NCBI GenBank assembly: GCA_016288205.1
Contig: JAEEYO010000063.1
Coordinates: 54,898-118,897, forward strand
Source: Treponema sp.
GTDB lineage: Bacteria > Spirochaetota > Spirochaetia > Treponematales > Treponemataceae
Reading direction: 5' to 3'
Length of the DNA: 64,000 nt
Positions 7,065-63,697 of the stretch are shown piece after piece (within the stretch, counting starts at the first letter, position 1; each line of letters begins with the position of its first letter). A program made the position numbers and the translations under genes. The notes beneath the pieces are model-generated. The model was not told where the DNA came from. It did not search any database and was given only the letters and a program-made list of their open reading frames with translations.

Positions 7065-7093
7065 ATTATAGCATGAACGCGGGATTTTGTCAT
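7065..7093 (-). promoter_or_regulatory. Promoter of the paaK operon (extended -10)
   Basis: ATGACA, 17-bp spacer ending TGC, then consensus TATAAT on the minus strand. It gives a leader of about 15 nt containing AGGAG. Confidence 0.65.
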
Positions 7094-7114
7094 GGGGGAT
7101 TTTATTTTAAGGAA

Positions 7115-7142
7115 TTGCTTATCCGAAAAAATCGGATATAAT
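7115..7142 (+). promoter_or_regulatory. rfbACB promoter with operator-like palindrome in the spacer
   Basis: TTGCTT, 16-bp spacer, TATAAT. The spacer is almost entirely the perfect inverted repeat ATCCGA-AAAAA-TCGGAT (7121-7137), which ends on the first base of the -10. A repressor bound there would block RNA polymerase. No regulator gene is adjacent. Confidence 0.6.
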
Positions 7143-7173
7143 GGAATACGTTACATACATGAGAGGTATAATG

Positions 7174-56939: not shown

Positions 56940-59477
56940 TTATCCGCAGATGCTCTGTGCGTATTTTACGCTTTCCATCGCGTCCTTCGTGTATGCGTCG
57001 GCATGGATTTTATCCGCGTAGTCCTGATTTAAGACGGCTCCTCCGACAAAGACCTTGCACCACGGGGCCTTTTCATGCAGCTGCTTTATGGTCTCTTCCA
57101 TTGCTCCGACCGTCGTTGTCATCAATGCGGAGAGTCCTGCAAGCGGGGCGTGTTCTTTTATAACGGCCTCCACAATCGCTTCCGGGGGAACGTCCTTTCC
57201 CATGTCGATTACGCGGAATGAGTAGTTTTCCAAAAGGACTTTGACTATGTTTTTGCCGATGTCGTGGATGTCTCCTTTTACAGTCGCAATCACAATGGGT
57301 CCTTTTTTCTCTCCGCTCACACCCTTTTTCTCAAGGTCATCCTTTATCACCGCAAAGGCCTCTTTTGCCGCGTCTGCCGCCATCAAAAGCTGTGGAAGAT
57401 AGGCTTTTTTGTTTTCAAAATCCTTTCCGATTATATCAAGGGCCGGGATTATCTTCGTGTTGATTACATCCATCGCGCTCATCGCTTCCTGATTGGGACT
57501 TCCCTCAAGAAGTTTGTGTGTCTCAGATTTTGAGACTTCCTTTAGTCCCTTGATGATTGCCTTTGTAAGCGGATGAAGATTGTCCTGCGACTCTGATTTT
57601 TGTGCTGACGGGTCGCCCTGTGCCTGGGGATTTGCCTGGGACTGTGCAAGTGCGATCTGTGCGGAGTATTTTTCCGCGAAACCGATGTATGAAAGACACT
57701 GGGGATCCATGCCGCTCAAGGTTTTAAAACAGGTCCACGCTTTCATCATCTCCACGGCGTTCGGATTCATGATTGCCGCGCTCAGTCCGTTTTGCATTGC
57801 CATCGTGAAAAAGATTGACGTGATGTGCTCGCGCAGGGGAAGTCCGAAAGAGACGTTTGAGACACCGAGGATTGTGAGCCCGTGCTTTTTCTCCTTCACA
57901 TATTTTACCGTGGCAAGAGTTGCGATCGCCGCCTGGTCATTTGCGCTTACCGTCATTGCGAGCGGATCAATGATGATGTCCTTTTCGCTGATTCCGTACT
58001 CTTTTGCCTTTGCATATATTTTCTCAACGACGGCGATTCTGTCATCCGCATTTTCCGCGATTCCGGCTTCATCAAGTGCGAGGGCTACAACCATGCCACC
58101 GTATTTTTTTACGAGCGGGAAGATTTGCTCCATGACTTCCTGCTTGCCGTTCACGGAATTTATGAGTGGCTTTCCGTTGTAAAGACGAAGGGCTTTTTCC
58201 ATCGTAACTGGATCCGACGTGTCAATCTGGAGGGGAAGGTCAGTGACGCTCTGAATCTCCTTGATGACGGCCTGCATCATCTTGCACTCATCAATTTCAG
58301 GAAGTCCCACGTTTACGTCCAAAACCTGCGCGCCCTTTTCCTCCTGCGTGATAGCCTCGTTCAGGATGTAGGAAATGTCATTGTCCTTGAGTGCCTGCTT
58401 GAGTTTTTTCTTTCCCGTGGGATTGATTCTTTCGCCAATCAGAATCGGTTCCCTTCCGAACTCAACGATTTTTGTTCCCGATGTTATGGTCGATTTTTTT
58501 AATGCGGGAACCTGGTTGTCTGTGTCAATTTTCCTTACCGGGATTACTTCGCATTTCTGCACGAGCCGCTTTATGAAAAAAGGATCCGATCCGCAGCATC
58601 CGCCGGCAATGGACGCACCTTCGCGGCAGAATGAGCTTACTATGTCAGAAAATTCCTCCGCGCCAACATCGTAAACGGTCCTTCCGTTTTCACTTTTCGG
58701 CAAGCCCGCGTTCGGTTTTACAAGTACCGGGAGATTCGTGGAATTCAAAAGACGTGTCACGATCGGCTTCATCTGCTCAGGACCAAGGCTGCAGTTCAAT
58801 CCGAGAGCGGAGACTCCGAGACTTTCCAAAACGGCGGCACAGATTTCAGGCGAGCTTCCTGTCAAGGTTTTTTGTCCCTCGTCATAGACCATAGATGCGA
58901 TGATGGGGATGGTAAAATCCGCTTCCTCCATTGCTTCCTTTGCTGCGATGATTGCTGCCTTTGCCTCGTAAAGGTCGTTCATGGTTTCTATTAGAATCAG
59001 GTCGGGCTTGTGCCTTAGCGCGATGTCAAAGCTGGTTTTGAAAAGAGTTACGGCATCCTCAAATTCCAAGTCTCCGAGAGGCTTTAAAAGTTTTCCGCAT
59101 GAGCCTATGTCAAAAGCGATGAAGCGTGGGACTGGATTTTTTTCGGGCGACTCATTTTTGTTTTCCTTTTCTTTTTCGAAAATCATCTTTCGTGCTTTGT
59201 TCGCATTTTCAAAGGCCGCCGCAATGATTTTTTCAAGGGGATATCTTCCGTTTTCTCCGTCGAACTTTGTGATGAAAGCTCCGAAGGTGTTTGTGTTGAT
59301 TATATTGGAGCCCGCAAGATAATAGCCGTACTCAAGGTCCACGATTTTTTCAGGATGCTCGATGTTCCAGTTTTCGGGAAGTTCTCCGGGACGCAAGCCC
59401 TGTGCCTGTAAAACGGATCCTGTTCCGCCGTCAAAAAATAAAATCTGATTTTCCAAACATTCGCTAAGAGTTTTCAT
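56940..59477 (-). CDS. metH: Cobalamin-dependent methionine synthase without activation domain
   Basis: An 845-residue protein. Residues 1-300 are the homocysteine-binding zinc domain (FFDGGTGSVLQAQGL, ALGLNCSLGPEQM, GGCCGSDP). Residues 330-600 are the pterin/methyltetrahydrofolate domain (ILIGERINPTGKKKLKQAL, NVGLPEIDE, SVNGKQEVM). The C-terminus is the cap and B12-binding domain with DIHDIGKNI. Full-length MetH is about 1200 residues; the AdoMet reactivation domain is missing and is encoded by the next gene upstream. It transfers methyl from 5-methyl-THF to homocysteine. Confidence 0.93.
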   Translation of the reverse strand: MKTLSECLENQILFFDGGTGSVLQAQGLRPGELPENWNIEHPEKIVDLEYGYYLAGSNIINTNTFGAFITKFDGENGRYPLEKIIAAAFENANKARKMIFEKEKENKNESPEKNPVPRFIAFDIGSCGKLLKPLGDLEFEDAVTLFKTSFDIALRHKPDLILIETMNDLYEAKAAIIAAKEAMEEADFTIPIIASMVYDEGQKTLTGSSPEICAAVLESLGVSALGLNCSLGPEQMKPIVTRLLNSTNLPVLVKPNAGLPKSENGRTVYDVGAEEFSDIVSSFCREGASIAGGCCGSDPFFIKRLVQKCEVIPVRKIDTDNQVPALKKSTITSGTKIVEFGREPILIGERINPTGKKKLKQALKDNDISYILNEAITQEEKGAQVLDVNVGLPEIDECKMMQAVIKEIQSVTDLPLQIDTSDPVTMEKALRLYNGKPLINSVNGKQEVMEQIFPLVKKYGGMVVALALDEAGIAENADDRIAVVEKIYAKAKEYGISEKDIIIDPLAMTVSANDQAAIATLATVKYVKEKKHGLTILGVSNVSFGLPLREHITSIFFTMAMQNGLSAAIMNPNAVEMMKAWTCFKTLSGMDPQCLSYIGFAEKYSAQIALAQSQANPQAQGDPSAQKSESQDNLHPLTKAIIKGLKEVSKSETHKLLEGSPNQEAMSAMDVINTKIIPALDIIGKDFENKKAYLPQLLMAADAAKEAFAVIKDDLEKKGVSGEKKGPIVIATVKGDIHDIGKNIVKVLLENYSFRVIDMGKDVPPEAIVEAVIKEHAPLAGLSALMTTTVGAMEETIKQLHEKAPWCKVFVGGAVLNQDYADKIHADAYTKDAMESVKYAQSICG

Positions 59478-59487
59478 GCCGATTACC

Positions 59488-60135
59488 TTATTTGATTTTT
59501 GCTAAGTCCTCGTAAATTCCAACAAAAGCCGTTACGGATTTTTCCGGGGACATAATCAAAGAGTCGTTCAATGTGAGCGCAAGATTTTTCTGGCAGTCCA
59601 AAAGCTCAAAAAATATCCGCTGTACCTCAAGGCTCACGTCTCCATAACCGGGACTGAACCTCGGACGGATTGCGTTTTTATTTTTTGCTTCCTCGCTTTG
59701 AAAAAAATCCTGCAGCTTTTCAACGTAGCTTTCAATGAACATCGCGCCGGCTGCCTGAAGCATCACCGATTTCGCCGGATTTATCTTTGAATTTTTTTGA
59801 ATGAGCCTGTCCACTTCCGGTCCCAGGGTCGCCGCAAAGAGAATTACGCTGTGGCAGTTTTTTAAATTCAAAAAAAGATGGTGGCTCTGGATTTCCTTTC
59901 CCGCGAATCTGATTTTTTCTTCCGAATCAAGCTCAAGAGGGAATTTTGCGTAGACCGAGCGGCAGTTCATTTTCTCCGCAATATCTTTGGCGGCGGACTT
60001 TGCAAGCTCTTCCATCTGTGAGTCCGTGATTTTTTCTCCCTGCAAGATTTCTTTTGAAAATCCTGCGTATCTGAAAAGCTCGGGAAAATCGGGCTGAATC
60101 TCTCTGGAAGTCAATCGGTGCCGAAAGACAGTCAT
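59488..60135 (-). CDS. Methionine synthase activation-domain protein
   Basis: A 215-residue stand-alone version of the MetH AdoMet-binding activation domain: RFSPGYGDVSLEVQRIFFELLDC, LNDSLIMSPEKSVTAFVGIY. It would reductively remethylate oxidised cob(II)alamin on MetH using AdoMet. ATG 60135 shares ATGA with the metF stop, so the track GTG 60144 is not needed. It lies 10 nt before metH. Confidence 0.88.
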   Translation of the reverse strand: MTVFRHRLTSREIQPDFPELFRYAGFSKEILQGEKITDSQMEELAKSAAKDIAEKMNCRSVYAKFPLELDSEEKIRFAGKEIQSHHLFLNLKNCHSVILFAATLGPEVDRLIQKNSKINPAKSVMLQAAGAMFIESYVEKLQDFFQSEEAKNKNAIRPRFSPGYGDVSLEVQRIFFELLDCQKNLALTLNDSLIMSPEKSVTAFVGIYEDLAKIK

Positions 60136-61004
60136 ATTTGCCACTTTATAATTGAAGAAAGATTCTCAAGAATTTTCTGCGCGACAATCGGTTTGTTCAT
60201 TGAGTAAATGTGGATGTGATTTATTCCGTTCGCAAAAAGATCGATTATCTGATCCGTGGCATAGGCAATTCCTGCCTGTAGCATTGCGTCCGCATCATTC
60301 CCAAATCTGTCCACGATGGAAAGAAAACGTGGCGGCATGATTGCACCTGAAAGTTTTATCGCGCGCTCAACCTGCTTTGCGTTTGTTATGGGCATGATTC
60401 CAGGGATGATTGGTGCGGTGATTCCTTTTTCTCGGACCCTGTACAAAAATTTATAATGGATGTTGTTGTCAAAAAACATCTGCGTCGTAAGGTACTGACA
60501 GCCCGCGTCGATTTTCTTTTTTAGGTTGTCAATGTCCTCGTTTGAATTCGCAGACTCAGGATGTCCCTCAGGATAGCAAGCGCCGCCGATGCAGAATCCT
60601 CCGAAATCGGAAATGTCCTTGGCAAGGTCGCTCGCATGATGATACTGGAGATTGCCCATCTCAAATCCCTCGGGAATGTCGCCGCGGAGGGCAAGGATGT
60701 TTTCAATGCCGGCTTCCCTCAGTTTTTTGAGCTGCTCCCGTACGAGTTCCTTTGTCGATGAGATGCATGTAAGATGCGCGATGGCCGTAACATTTTTGTC
60801 GCACTGGATGTGCTTTGCGATCGAGACTGTGTGCTGGCTTGTTCCGCCTCCTGCTCCATAGGTGACGCTCATGTAGGACGGATTCAAATCCGCTATTTTT
60901 TCAACCGCCTCTTCCACGGTTTTATATGAAGCATCCGTTTTCGGAGGAAAGACCTCAACTGATAAAGTCGGGTGCGGTGATTTTAAGACATCTATTACTT
61001 TCAT
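60132..61004 (-). CDS. metF: Methylenetetrahydrofolate reductase
   Basis: A 290-residue FAD-dependent TIM-barrel enzyme supplying 5-methyl-THF to MetH. Motifs are SVEVFPPKTD, MSVTYGAGGGTS, HLTCISSTKELV, LALRGDIPEG, GGACYPEGHPES and TTQMFFDN. No SD is present; the -10 TATAGT ends 6 nt before the ATG. First gene of metF-activation-metH. Confidence 0.94.
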   Translation of the reverse strand: MKVIDVLKSPHPTLSVEVFPPKTDASYKTVEEAVEKIADLNPSYMSVTYGAGGGTSQHTVSIAKHIQCDKNVTAIAHLTCISSTKELVREQLKKLREAGIENILALRGDIPEGFEMGNLQYHHASDLAKDISDFGGFCIGGACYPEGHPESANSNEDIDNLKKKIDAGCQYLTTQMFFDNNIHYKFLYRVREKGITAPIIPGIMPITNAKQVERAIKLSGAIMPPRFLSIVDRFGNDADAMLQAGIAYATDQIIDLFANGINHIHIYSMNKPIVAQKILENLSSIIKWQI

Positions 61005-61010
61005 AGGTCT

Positions 61011-61039
61011 ACTATATTACATTCGCGCTTTTGTTGCAA
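61011..61039 (-). promoter_or_regulatory. metF promoter, sharing its -35 with the btuF-like gene
   Basis: TTGCAA (61034-61039), 17-bp spacer, TATAGT on the minus strand, 6 nt to ATG 61004. TTGCAA equals its own reverse complement and also serves the plus-strand promoter. Confidence 0.65.
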
Positions 61040-61062
61040 TAAACTTTTGTTTTGATTATACT
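61034..61062 (+). promoter_or_regulatory. btuF-like promoter, sharing its -35 with metF
   Basis: TTGCAA, 17-bp spacer, TATACT, 6 nt to ATG 61069. The geometry mirrors the metF side base for base in spacing. It argues that ATG 61063, which abuts the -10, is not the start. Confidence 0.65.
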
Positions 61063-61068
61063 ATGTTT

Positions 61069-61929
61069 ATGAAAAATTTGAAAAAATATGTCGCAGTGTT
61101 TGTTTTCTTTTTTGTGGCTGCCTCGCTGATTTCATGCGGCAAATCGAATGTAAAATCGGAAAAGAAAGCGGATATCAGGATTGTTTCTTTGGGGCCGTCC
61201 GCAACGGAAATTCTTTTTGCCATCGGTGCTAATGATGAGCTTGTCGCCAGAACTGATTTGTGCGATTATCCTGAGGAGGCTAAGGACATATCTTCCGTCG
61301 GCGGTTTTTCCGGGAACACAATCAGCCTTGAGTCAATTCTTTCTTTTGAGCCGACTTTGGTTTATCTATTCGCGGGCATGCATGATTTTTTAATTGAGCC
61401 GCTGGAGGCTGCCGGCATTCAGGTTTATGTCTCAAATGCGAATTCCATTGATGCGGTCAAAACGGAAATCCTCGACATGGGAAAAATCACGGGACATGAA
61501 AAACAGGCTCAGAGCGTCATAAATGAAATGGATAAAAAACTTGACGAGGCTAAAAAAATCACCGAAAAAAAATCCGGGGGTAAAAGCGAAAAGTTTCCGA
61601 AGGTGTATTGGGAAATATGGCATGAGCCGATGATGAGCGTTGGAAGGGATTCTTTTATCAATGATATTATCCAAAGGGCGGGCGGTAAGAATATTTTTGC
61701 CGATGAGGAATATGCCTATCCGATGGTGAGTGAGGAAGCAGTTCTTTATGCCGCTCCCGATTTTATTTTTTACACCGGGAACGGAATGGGAGGAGGAAAG
61801 CCTTCTGAAAATCTGAGCGCTCCGAAAGGGATTTTCTTTATGGGTGATGATGACGGTTTTGTCCGTTCTTCACCAAGGGCCGCCGATGCGGTTTTAAAGC
61901 TTGCGAAAATCATTTGGGAAGAAAAGTGA
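61069..61929 (+). CDS. btuF: ABC transporter substrate-binding lipoprotein (BtuF-like)
   Basis: A 286-residue lipoprotein; the signal ends ASLISCGKS. The fold is the class III periplasmic binding type used for cobalamin and siderophores: RIVSLGPSATEILFAIGANDELVARTDLCDYP, EPTLVYLF and DFIFYTGNGMGGGK. WHEPMMSVGRDSFINDII is typical of the BtuF/FepB group. Divergence from B12-dependent metF-metH makes cobalamin the likely ligand; heme or siderophore cannot be excluded. Confidence 0.82.
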   Translation: MKNLKKYVAVFVFFFVAASLISCGKSNVKSEKKADIRIVSLGPSATEILFAIGANDELVARTDLCDYPEEAKDISSVGGFSGNTISLESILSFEPTLVYLFAGMHDFLIEPLEAAGIQVYVSNANSIDAVKTEILDMGKITGHEKQAQSVINEMDKKLDEAKKITEKKSGGKSEKFPKVYWEIWHEPMMSVGRDSFINDIIQRAGGKNIFADEEYAYPMVSEEAVLYAAPDFIFYTGNGMGGGKPSENLSAPKGIFFMGDDDGFVRSSPRAADAVLKLAKIIWEEK

Positions 61930-62945
61930 AAGCTGAAAATAGAAAATCAAAAAAGGAAAAGTTTTTCTCATTTTTTTTGAAATGGTCGCCGTGTTTTTTT
62001 CTTTTGATTCTTTGTGTCGCAGCCCTCGGATTCGGCACCAAATTGATTTCACCTTTTTCCATTTTTTCCGAGACAATTTCAAAAACTGATTTTGTCATTT
62101 TGGTAAAAATCCGTCTTCCAAGAATTTTACTCAGTGTGATTTGCGGCGCGCTTTTGGGGGGAACCGGAGCTGTTTTCCAAGGCTTTTTCAGAAATCCACT
62201 TGCGGATCCCGGAATTATGGGAGTGTGTTCTGGTGCGACTTTCGGTGCTGTCTTGTCCGGCCTGATTCCACTGTCCGCATTTTCCTTTTTGAGCCACACA
62301 ACTTTTTTTGCCTTTGCGGGTGCCTTGCTTTCGGCCCTATGCGTTTTTCTTTTTTCAAAATTTTTCAAAGAGACATCCAGCGTTACTCTGTTGCTTTCAG
62401 GTACGGCGGTCGGCACTTTTTTTTCTGCGCTTGCCTCAATCATTTTGCTGACTCACGAAAGCGATTTGCATTCTTTTTACGTGTGGACGACAGGAAGTTT
62501 TAACGCGAAGGGATGGAAGGAATTTTCCACGTTCATAATTCCGTCGCTTTTGTCATTGGTTTTGCTGGAGCTTTCCTCAAGGCATCTGGATGTGCTTGTG
62601 TGCGGAGAAAATTCAGCACGGACTTTGGGACTGAATTACGGTTTTGTCAGAAATTACGTTTTGATTTCAGGCTCCCTTGCGACAAGCTGCGCGGTCTGTT
62701 CCGGCGGCATAATCTCTTTTGTCGGACTGATTGCACCGCACATCGCACGGAAAATCTATGGTCCCCTGCACAGGACTTTGATTTTTGAAAGCATGATTTA
62801 TGGCGCAGGTCTTATGCTCATCGCGGACACTTTGGCAAGGACAGTCGTTTCTCCGTCTGAGCTACCGGTCGGAATCATCACTTCGCTTGTGGGCGTTCCG
62901 TGTTTTATCGCCGTGCTTTTTAAAATGGGCAGGGAGAGAGGATGA
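61926..62945 (+). CDS. btuC: FecCD-family ABC permease (BtuC-like)
   Basis: A 339-residue membrane protein with about ten segments and the family motifs VKIRLPRILLSVICGALLGGTGAVFQGFFRNPLADPGIMG, LLLSGTAVGTFFSAL and GGIISFVGLIAPHIARKI. GTG 61926 overlaps the upstream stop (GTGA) and has GGGAAG upstream, so it is preferred over the track TTG 61914. Confidence 0.88.
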   Translation: MKAENRKSKKEKFFSFFLKWSPCFFLLILCVAALGFGTKLISPFSIFSETISKTDFVILVKIRLPRILLSVICGALLGGTGAVFQGFFRNPLADPGIMGVCSGATFGAVLSGLIPLSAFSFLSHTTFFAFAGALLSALCVFLFSKFFKETSSVTLLLSGTAVGTFFSALASIILLTHESDLHSFYVWTTGSFNAKGWKEFSTFIIPSLLSLVLLELSSRHLDVLVCGENSARTLGLNYGFVRNYVLISGSLATSCAVCSGGIISFVGLIAPHIARKIYGPLHRTLIFESMIYGAGLMLIADTLARTVVSPSELPVGIITSLVGVPCFIAVLFKMGRERG

Positions 62946-62947
62946 TT

Positions 62948-63697
62948 ATGCTTGAGGTAAAAAATCTTAGCGCGGGTTATGGGAAAAAAATCATTTTTGA
63001 AAATCTCTCCTTTTGTCTGGAGACTGGAAGTTTTACGGCACTCTGCGGAAAAAACGGCTCGGGGAAAAGCACTCTTTTGAATTTAATTTCGGGGATAGTT
63101 CCAAGCGGGCTTTCTTTTGAAGGCGACGTTTTGTTTGAGGGCGAGAGTGTTTTTAAAATGAAGAGAAAAGACGTGGCGCAGAAAATCTCCCTTTTGCTCC
63201 AGGAGGAGAATCCCGTGTGGAACATGAGCGTGAGGCAGTTTGTGGAGACCGGGCTTTATTCGTTCGGGGAAATGCCGAAAAATCAATGCGACAAAATTGT
63301 TGATGCTGCCCTGAGCAAAATCGGGATCGCAGATTTTTCCGACAAAAAGATTTTTGCTATCTCCGGAGGGGAATTCCAAAAGTGCAGATTGGCACGGAGT
63401 TTCGTTCAGGGAAGTCCGCTGATGCTTTTTGACGAGCCTTCCGACAGGCTTGATTATTCATTCCAGCAGTCATTTTTGCGTGAGACAAAGGAGCTGGATA
63501 AGACGATTCTTTTTTCAATCCACGACATCAACACGGCCTCAATTTTTGCGGAGGATTTTCTTCTGCTTTGTGACGGAAAAATCATCCGGGGCAAAAGACA
63601 GGAAATTTTTGACGAAGATGTTTTGTCAAAGGCTTTCGGTGCCGGAGTGAAGATTTTCAATCATCCGCTTTTGAATGTTCCGCAACTTGCGTTTTAA
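62948..63697 (+). CDS. btuD: ABC transporter ATPase (BtuD/FepC-like)
   Basis: A 249-residue ATPase: Walker A CGKNGSGKSTLLN, Q-loop LLLQEEN, signature ISGGEFQKCRLARSF, Walker B LMLFDEPSDRLD and His switch FSIHD. GAGAGG is 6 nt before ATG 62948 and abuts ATG 62942, so 62948 is chosen. It completes the BtuFCD-like operon and meets the minus-strand gene tail to tail with a 4-nt overlap. Confidence 0.9.
   Translation: MLEVKNLSAGYGKKIIFENLSFCLETGSFTALCGKNGSGKSTLLNLISGIVPSGLSFEGDVLFEGESVFKMKRKDVAQKISLLLQEENPVWNMSVRQFVETGLYSFGEMPKNQCDKIVDAALSKIGIADFSDKKIFAISGGEFQKCRLARSFVQGSPLMLFDEPSDRLDYSFQQSFLRETKELDKTILFSIHDINTASIFAEDFLLLCDGKIIRGKRQEIFDEDVLSKAFGAGVKIFNHPLLNVPQLAF

Follow-up and report, generated by a model that had tools for sequence, protein, structure and literature searches.

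A palindromic hexamer, probably a shared -35, between metF and a btuF-like gene as one case of a predicted promoter layout that recurs in Treponema

We analyzed a 64,000-nucleotide stretch of DNA from Treponema sp. (the window), in which metF and a divergently transcribed btuF-like gene flank one palindromic hexamer, TTGCAA. We consider it probable that two housekeeping-sigma promoters lie back to back in this gap and use a single -35 hexamer, one promoter on each strand. The arrangement looks like one instance of a layout of divergent leaderless genes that recurs across the genus, and not like a device specific to cobalamin, because the same layout is found at unrelated gene pairs and is kept in relatives.

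A probable shared -35 element

The hexamer TTGCAA (61034-61039, common to both strands) is its own reverse complement, and on each strand it lies exactly 17 bp from a -10 box of the form TANNNT. Reading leftward, the 17-bp spacer leads to TATAGT (61016-61011, minus strand) and then, after 6 nt, to the ATG of metF at 61004 (61002-61004, minus strand), a start that aligns across relatives. Reading rightward, the spacer leads to TATACT (61057-61062, plus strand) and then, again after 6 nt, to an ATG of the btuF-like gene at 61069 (61069-61071). This is the second in-frame ATG. The ORF finder had placed the start at 61063, which abuts the -10 box, and this codon is GTG in the closest relative (L002). 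In the alignment of relatives, the ATG at 61069 (M3 of the protein) is invariant and is the only conserved start, so the 6-nt distance is correct on both sides. The initial annotation had described a symmetric divergent promoter built on one palindromic -35 element, with the btuF start at this in-frame ATG. All of its coordinates, both 17-bp spacers and both 6-nt distances proved exact.

TTGCAA matches the consensus TTGACA at four of six positions. The two -10 boxes are separate (40 bp apart, from 61016 to 61057), so that sharing is limited to the -35 element, and the two start codons are separated by 64 bp. The region therefore has the form of two overlapping divergent sigma70-type promoters (TTGCAA-N17-TATAGT and TTGCAA-N17-TATACT, with the 17-bp spacer that is preferred genome-wide), and not of a bidirectional promoter of the shared -10 type, in which transcripts start 10-23 bp apart around one -10. 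We call a gene leaderless-type if a -10 box lies 5-8 nt before its start codon and there is no Shine-Dalgarno motif. Both sides have this form, and because the -10 boxes are 6 nt from the start codons, both metF and btuF are predicted to be leaderless.

Promoters and leaderless genes across the genome

We computed promoter statistics from a 379-kb sample of this genome (L100-L119 plus the window). Pairs of TTGNNN and TATANT peak sharply at a spacer of 17 bp, with 46 pairs versus about 13-27 at other spacers. TTGCAA accounts for 3 of 35 hexamers at the -35 position upstream of genes (TTGACA accounts for 5), and by this measure it is an ordinary -35 element in this genome.

In the sample, 153 genes have intergenic upstream sequence. 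For 16 of them (about one in ten), metF included, a strong -10 box lies 5-8 nt upstream of the ATG, most often at 6-7 nt. A Shine-Dalgarno-like motif precedes none of these 16 genes, as compared to 89 of the 153 overall. Together, the close -10 boxes and the missing Shine-Dalgarno motifs argue that leaderless genes are a real class in this genome. Leaderless genes are known in Spirochaetes, where they were reported in 6 of 18 genomes at a mean of 3.9% of genes (Zheng et al. 2011, PMC3160421), and the start-site map of Leptospira interrogans also covers them (PMC5243855). Our literature search for leaderless genes and start-site mapping in Treponema found no report.

The flanking operons and cobalamin

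To the left of the hexamer, metF (60132-61004, minus strand) encodes methylenetetrahydrofolate reductase (PF02219, E = 7.8e-82; TIGR00676 above its cut-off). It is followed in the same operon by a separate methionine synthase activation-domain protein (59488-60144, minus strand; PF02965, E = 1.1e-06 over residues 100-208) and by the core of the cobalamin-dependent methionine synthase, metH, which lacks the C-terminal activation domain (56940-59477, minus strand; PF02574, PF00809, PF02607, and PF02310). Methionine synthase is thus split (56940-60144), with the 218-aa Met_synt_B12 activation-domain protein encoded just upstream of the MetH core.

To the right are the btuF-like substrate-binding protein (61069-61929, plus strand; PF01497), a btuC-like FecCD permease whose start is uncertain (61914-62945, plus strand; PF01032, E = 3.1e-85), and a btuD-like ABC ATPase (62942-63697, plus strand; PF00005). 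The best solved relative of the btuF-like protein is a vitamin B12-binding protein (5ysc, E = 6.8e-23). The NCBIfam model for BtuF also matches it, albeit below the cut-off, so a corrinoid is the likely substrate, short of certain.

Cobalamin is used by MetH and not by MetF itself. The statement in the initial annotation that both operons depend on cobalamin thus holds by way of metH, downstream of metF, and does not hold for MetF. The annotation had also pointed out that the gap leaves no room for a cobalamin riboswitch. No Rfam family matches anywhere in the window, and the cobalamin riboswitch (RF00174) was not found upstream of btuF or of metF/metH, or anywhere else in the genome. Since the whole genome is without these riboswitches, their absence from this gap is not special.

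Beyond close treponemes, the top relatives of the MetF protein (60132-61004) in a contig scan are from Clostridia, at 60-65% identity, whereas MetF in many congeners is just 50-55% identical to it, which suggests horizontal transfer. The scan of genome contigs with the MetF alignment returned almost exclusively Clostridia; the sole additional locus from the treponeme side was on a Spirochaetales contig (L138).

Conservation among relatives

We found divergent metF-btuF pairs at L001, L002, L007, L032, L035, L036, L037, L041, L062, and L068-L072. At L003-L006, metF is not at that place and the activation-domain gene is divergent from btuF instead. Ten of these metF-btuF or activation-gene-btuF loci, which are few, not independent of one another, and in many cases from draft genomes, keep the core of the hexamer and both 17-bp spacers, while the sequence of the spacers drifts. 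The shared element is TTGCAA in seven of them (L001, L002, L003, L004, L006, L007, and L032) and GTGCAA in three (L036, L037, and L062). In L003, L004, and L006, the 17/17 spacing is retained with the activation-domain gene as the divergent partner of btuF. The initial annotation had made its reading depend on TTGCAA and both -10 boxes persisting in relatives, and most relatives do retain them.

At three further loci, the left promoter is kept and the overlap is broken. In L035 and L041, the 17 bp to a TANNNT on the left remain, and the -10 box of btuF is now at 9 bp, as an extended -10 (TGn). In L005, an insertion parts the two promoters, and each side retains a TTG hexamer of its own (TTGTAA on the left and TTGCAA on the right) at 17 bp from the -10. 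This insertion lies to the left of TTGCAA, is roughly 100 bp long and repeat-like, and contains CACGGCCTTCGGCCTC; it amounts to a natural decoupling experiment. The other five relatives with divergent metF and btuF (L068-L072) show no TTGCAA and have another layout.

Across the aligned loci that carry the element, the TGCAA core is invariant and most spacer positions vary. (The L005 row of the aligned-locus profile is mis-centred, and its -10 columns should be ignored.) The 17-bp spacer between the -35 and the -10 on the metF side is kept in every relative with the element. The flanking T and A bases (TTNTTGCAANAA) are also conserved among loci of the metF/btuF family, although a pure -35 model does not need them.

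The metF half of the element also occurs away from btuF. In L039 and L040, where we found no divergent btuF, metF keeps TTGCAC-N17-TATTAT-N6-ATG; in L039, the gene upstream of metF is co-directional. At L066, the 17/17 layout is present at metF and the divergent gene is not btuF. TTGCAA-N17 also precedes metF without btuF at L052, L055, L056, and L092, and at L079, whose homologue L083 has TTGAAA.

Recurrence in the genus

We counted matches to the pattern ANNNTA-N17-TTGCAA-N17-TANNNT in 196 genomes of the genus. These counts include chance matches, which we gauged with controls that have other spacers. There were 245 sites with 17/17 spacing, as compared to 139 for the 21/21 control and 91 for the 20/20 control, so the 17/17 layout is 2-3 times more common than the controls. 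We then sampled 30 sites per class and scored a site as double-leaderless if, on both sides, an ATG that opens an ORF of 60 or more codons lies 3-11 nt past the -10 box. This was the case for 11 of 30 sites with 17/17 spacing and for none of 30 sites with 20/20 spacing (Fisher p = 0.0003). The 11 include four orthologous SmpB/LepB loci, which leaves eight distinct gene pairs: SmpB/LepB, GalT/GH43, rhomboid/ACT protein, GNAT/BadF-type ATPase, HAD hydrolase/periplasmic-binding-type (sugar-binding) protein, short-chain dehydrogenase/TAtT, activation protein/btuF, and metF/btuF. (SmpB and LepB were identified with Pfam in L215 and by sequence likeness at the other loci.)

We also considered whether the exact palindrome is a unique arrangement, and it is not. 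An overlap that is shifted by one base, TTGNCAA with gaps of 16 bp (so that each spacer is still 17 bp), is at least as common, with 328 sites, and 7 of 30 sampled sites were double-leaderless. Exact superposition is thus one overlap among several, and the partner genes are unrelated in function. Divergent leaderless pairs with a shifted overlap (TTGACAA, TTGTCAA, and similar) include secA/lipoprotein and ftsH/clpP (L245-L274; e.g., L252, L258, L270, and L272).

The window has a second divergent gap, of 65 bp (7093-7158), with a hairpin, ATCCGAAAAAATCGGAT, directly before a TATAAT. Inspection by eye of the pair at 7093-7158 revealed no shared -35 element.

Alternative explanations

The conserved flanks would fit a different role for TTGCAA, as the center of a palindromic operator, TTRTTGCAAYAA, at which a transcription factor controls both operons and the -35-like spacing is secondary. 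L003 (TTGTTGCAACAA), L006 (TTATTGCAATAA), and L032 (TTTCTTGCAAGAAA) each carry a perfect copy of the extended palindrome, and the TT and AA flanks are conserved at 12 of the 13 loci in the alignment. We nevertheless think an operator unlikely. TTNTTGCAANAA is present just 15 times in the genome with no apparent regulon; the copies we inspected are mostly within predicted coding sequence, and two intergenic copies (L128 and L132) resemble ordinary -35 elements with 17-bp spacers. The flanks are missing at unrelated gene pairs of the same geometry. Furthermore, L036, L037, L062, L039, and L040 do not have an intact palindrome (GTGCAA/TTGCAC), yet metF keeps its 17-bp spacer in them. In L039 and L040, where no divergent btuF was found, the far arm is lost and the part that faces metF remains. 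We favor promoters over an operator because metF keeps a spaced -35 in these two loci, because other metF genes without btuF use TTGCAA-N17, and because the few copies of TTNTTGCAANAA show no regulon and include two that are -35-like.

If the hexamer does serve promoters, these might still be minor ones. Our promoter scan identified a minus-strand TATAAT (61060-61055) that overlaps the -10 box of btuF and could be an additional promoter for metF, which would give metF a leader of 44-50 nt. With TTTTCA or TTCAAA at 18 or 16 bp, it scores 10/12, versus 9/12 for the shared -35 promoters. On the other hand, its -35 matches are poor, no Shine-Dalgarno motif precedes metF, and most relatives have the 6-nt spacing at metF, whereas the TATAAT in the spacer is not kept (for example, in L036 and L062). 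It is quite improbable that this or another promoter dominates and that the symmetry of TTGCAA matters little. The initial annotation had proposed that the shared -35 was selected as a fixed competition between the use of cobalamin (metF, the activation gene, and metH) and its import (btuFCD). Both operons are tied to cobalamin through metH, and their divergent linkage persists in several relatives, even with the activation-domain gene in the place of metF. However, identical geometry joins functionally unrelated pairs, the promoters have been separated in L005, L035, and L041 despite the same genes, and L069-L072 have another layout. In E. coli, moreover, promoters with a shared -10 compete only upon strong activation in one direction (PMC12825309). 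A fixed balance between use and import is therefore very unlikely to be the purpose of the overlap.

A probable mechanism

The reading that we prefer is that of back-to-back promoters on one -35 hexamer. From the computed geometry, conservation, recurrence, and leaderless signature, we infer how such an element would work in terms of sigma use, start sites, exclusion, and expression. If two -35 elements are to coincide exactly, TTGCAA is the only hexamer that would read TTGNNN on both strands. A sigma70-type RNA polymerase would bind it in either orientation and melt the -10 box on that side, with an optimal 17-bp spacer each way. As each -10 box is 6 nt from a start codon, each transcript would be expected to start on the ATG or no more than about 1 nt away from it, and to be leaderless. 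A polymerase that is bound one way would cover the -35 of the opposite promoter, so binding is expected to be mutually exclusive. Such exclusion at TTGCAA is physically plausible, and its weight would, by analogy, depend on promoter strength.

Divergent promoters that lie back to back and overlap in their -35 regions are a known general class with possible interference. The metF/btuF region resembles this class in its divergent operons, overlapping promoters, and potential interference; it differs in that the two -35 elements coincide exactly on a palindromic hexamer, both genes are predicted to be leaderless, and the arrangement recurs within one genus. Bidirectional promoters, as summarized in PMC12825309 and PMC10268837 (citing Warman et al. 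2021), have one symmetric -10 element and start sites that are 10, 18, or 23 bp apart; separate divergent promoters are not classed as bidirectional in PMC12825309. In E. coli promoters of this kind, competition for polymerase is negligible at basal activity and is seen only upon strong activation one way (PMC12825309). Like them, the metF/btuF region has one short symmetric element, two orientations of polymerase, and an expectation of steric exclusion. Unlike them, it shares the -35, its predicted starts lie at the outer edges with about 64 bp between them, and leaderless mRNAs are expected in both directions. As in the leaderless genes described in PMC3160421 and PMC5243855, a -10 box lies immediately before the start codon and there is no Shine-Dalgarno motif; those studies count single genes, and the word "divergent" is absent from the main text of both. 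In geometry, a pair of leaderless genes with one -35 between them and 64 bp from start to start differs from the described bidirectional promoters, and our literature search, which was largely of sources outside subscription journals, found no report of this combination.

More tentatively, this could be a standard module of treponemes: divergent leaderless genes about 64 bp apart, with -35 elements that are exactly or nearly superimposed, and with the polymerase choosing one gene each time it binds. We view this as possible, though somewhat less likely than its absence. The metF/btuF locus would be valuable mainly as a well-conserved example, to which the cobalamin story adds little. Leaderless translation would let divergent genes pack with 64 bp between their start codons. 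If the module is real, it would add a distinct class to the bidirectional promoters of bacteria, one in which the -35 rather than the -10 is shared and which has measurable effects on expression noise or balance. A conserved class of this kind, with two leaderless mRNAs, would be a minimal test case for whether a steric choice of direction couples the expression of two genes.
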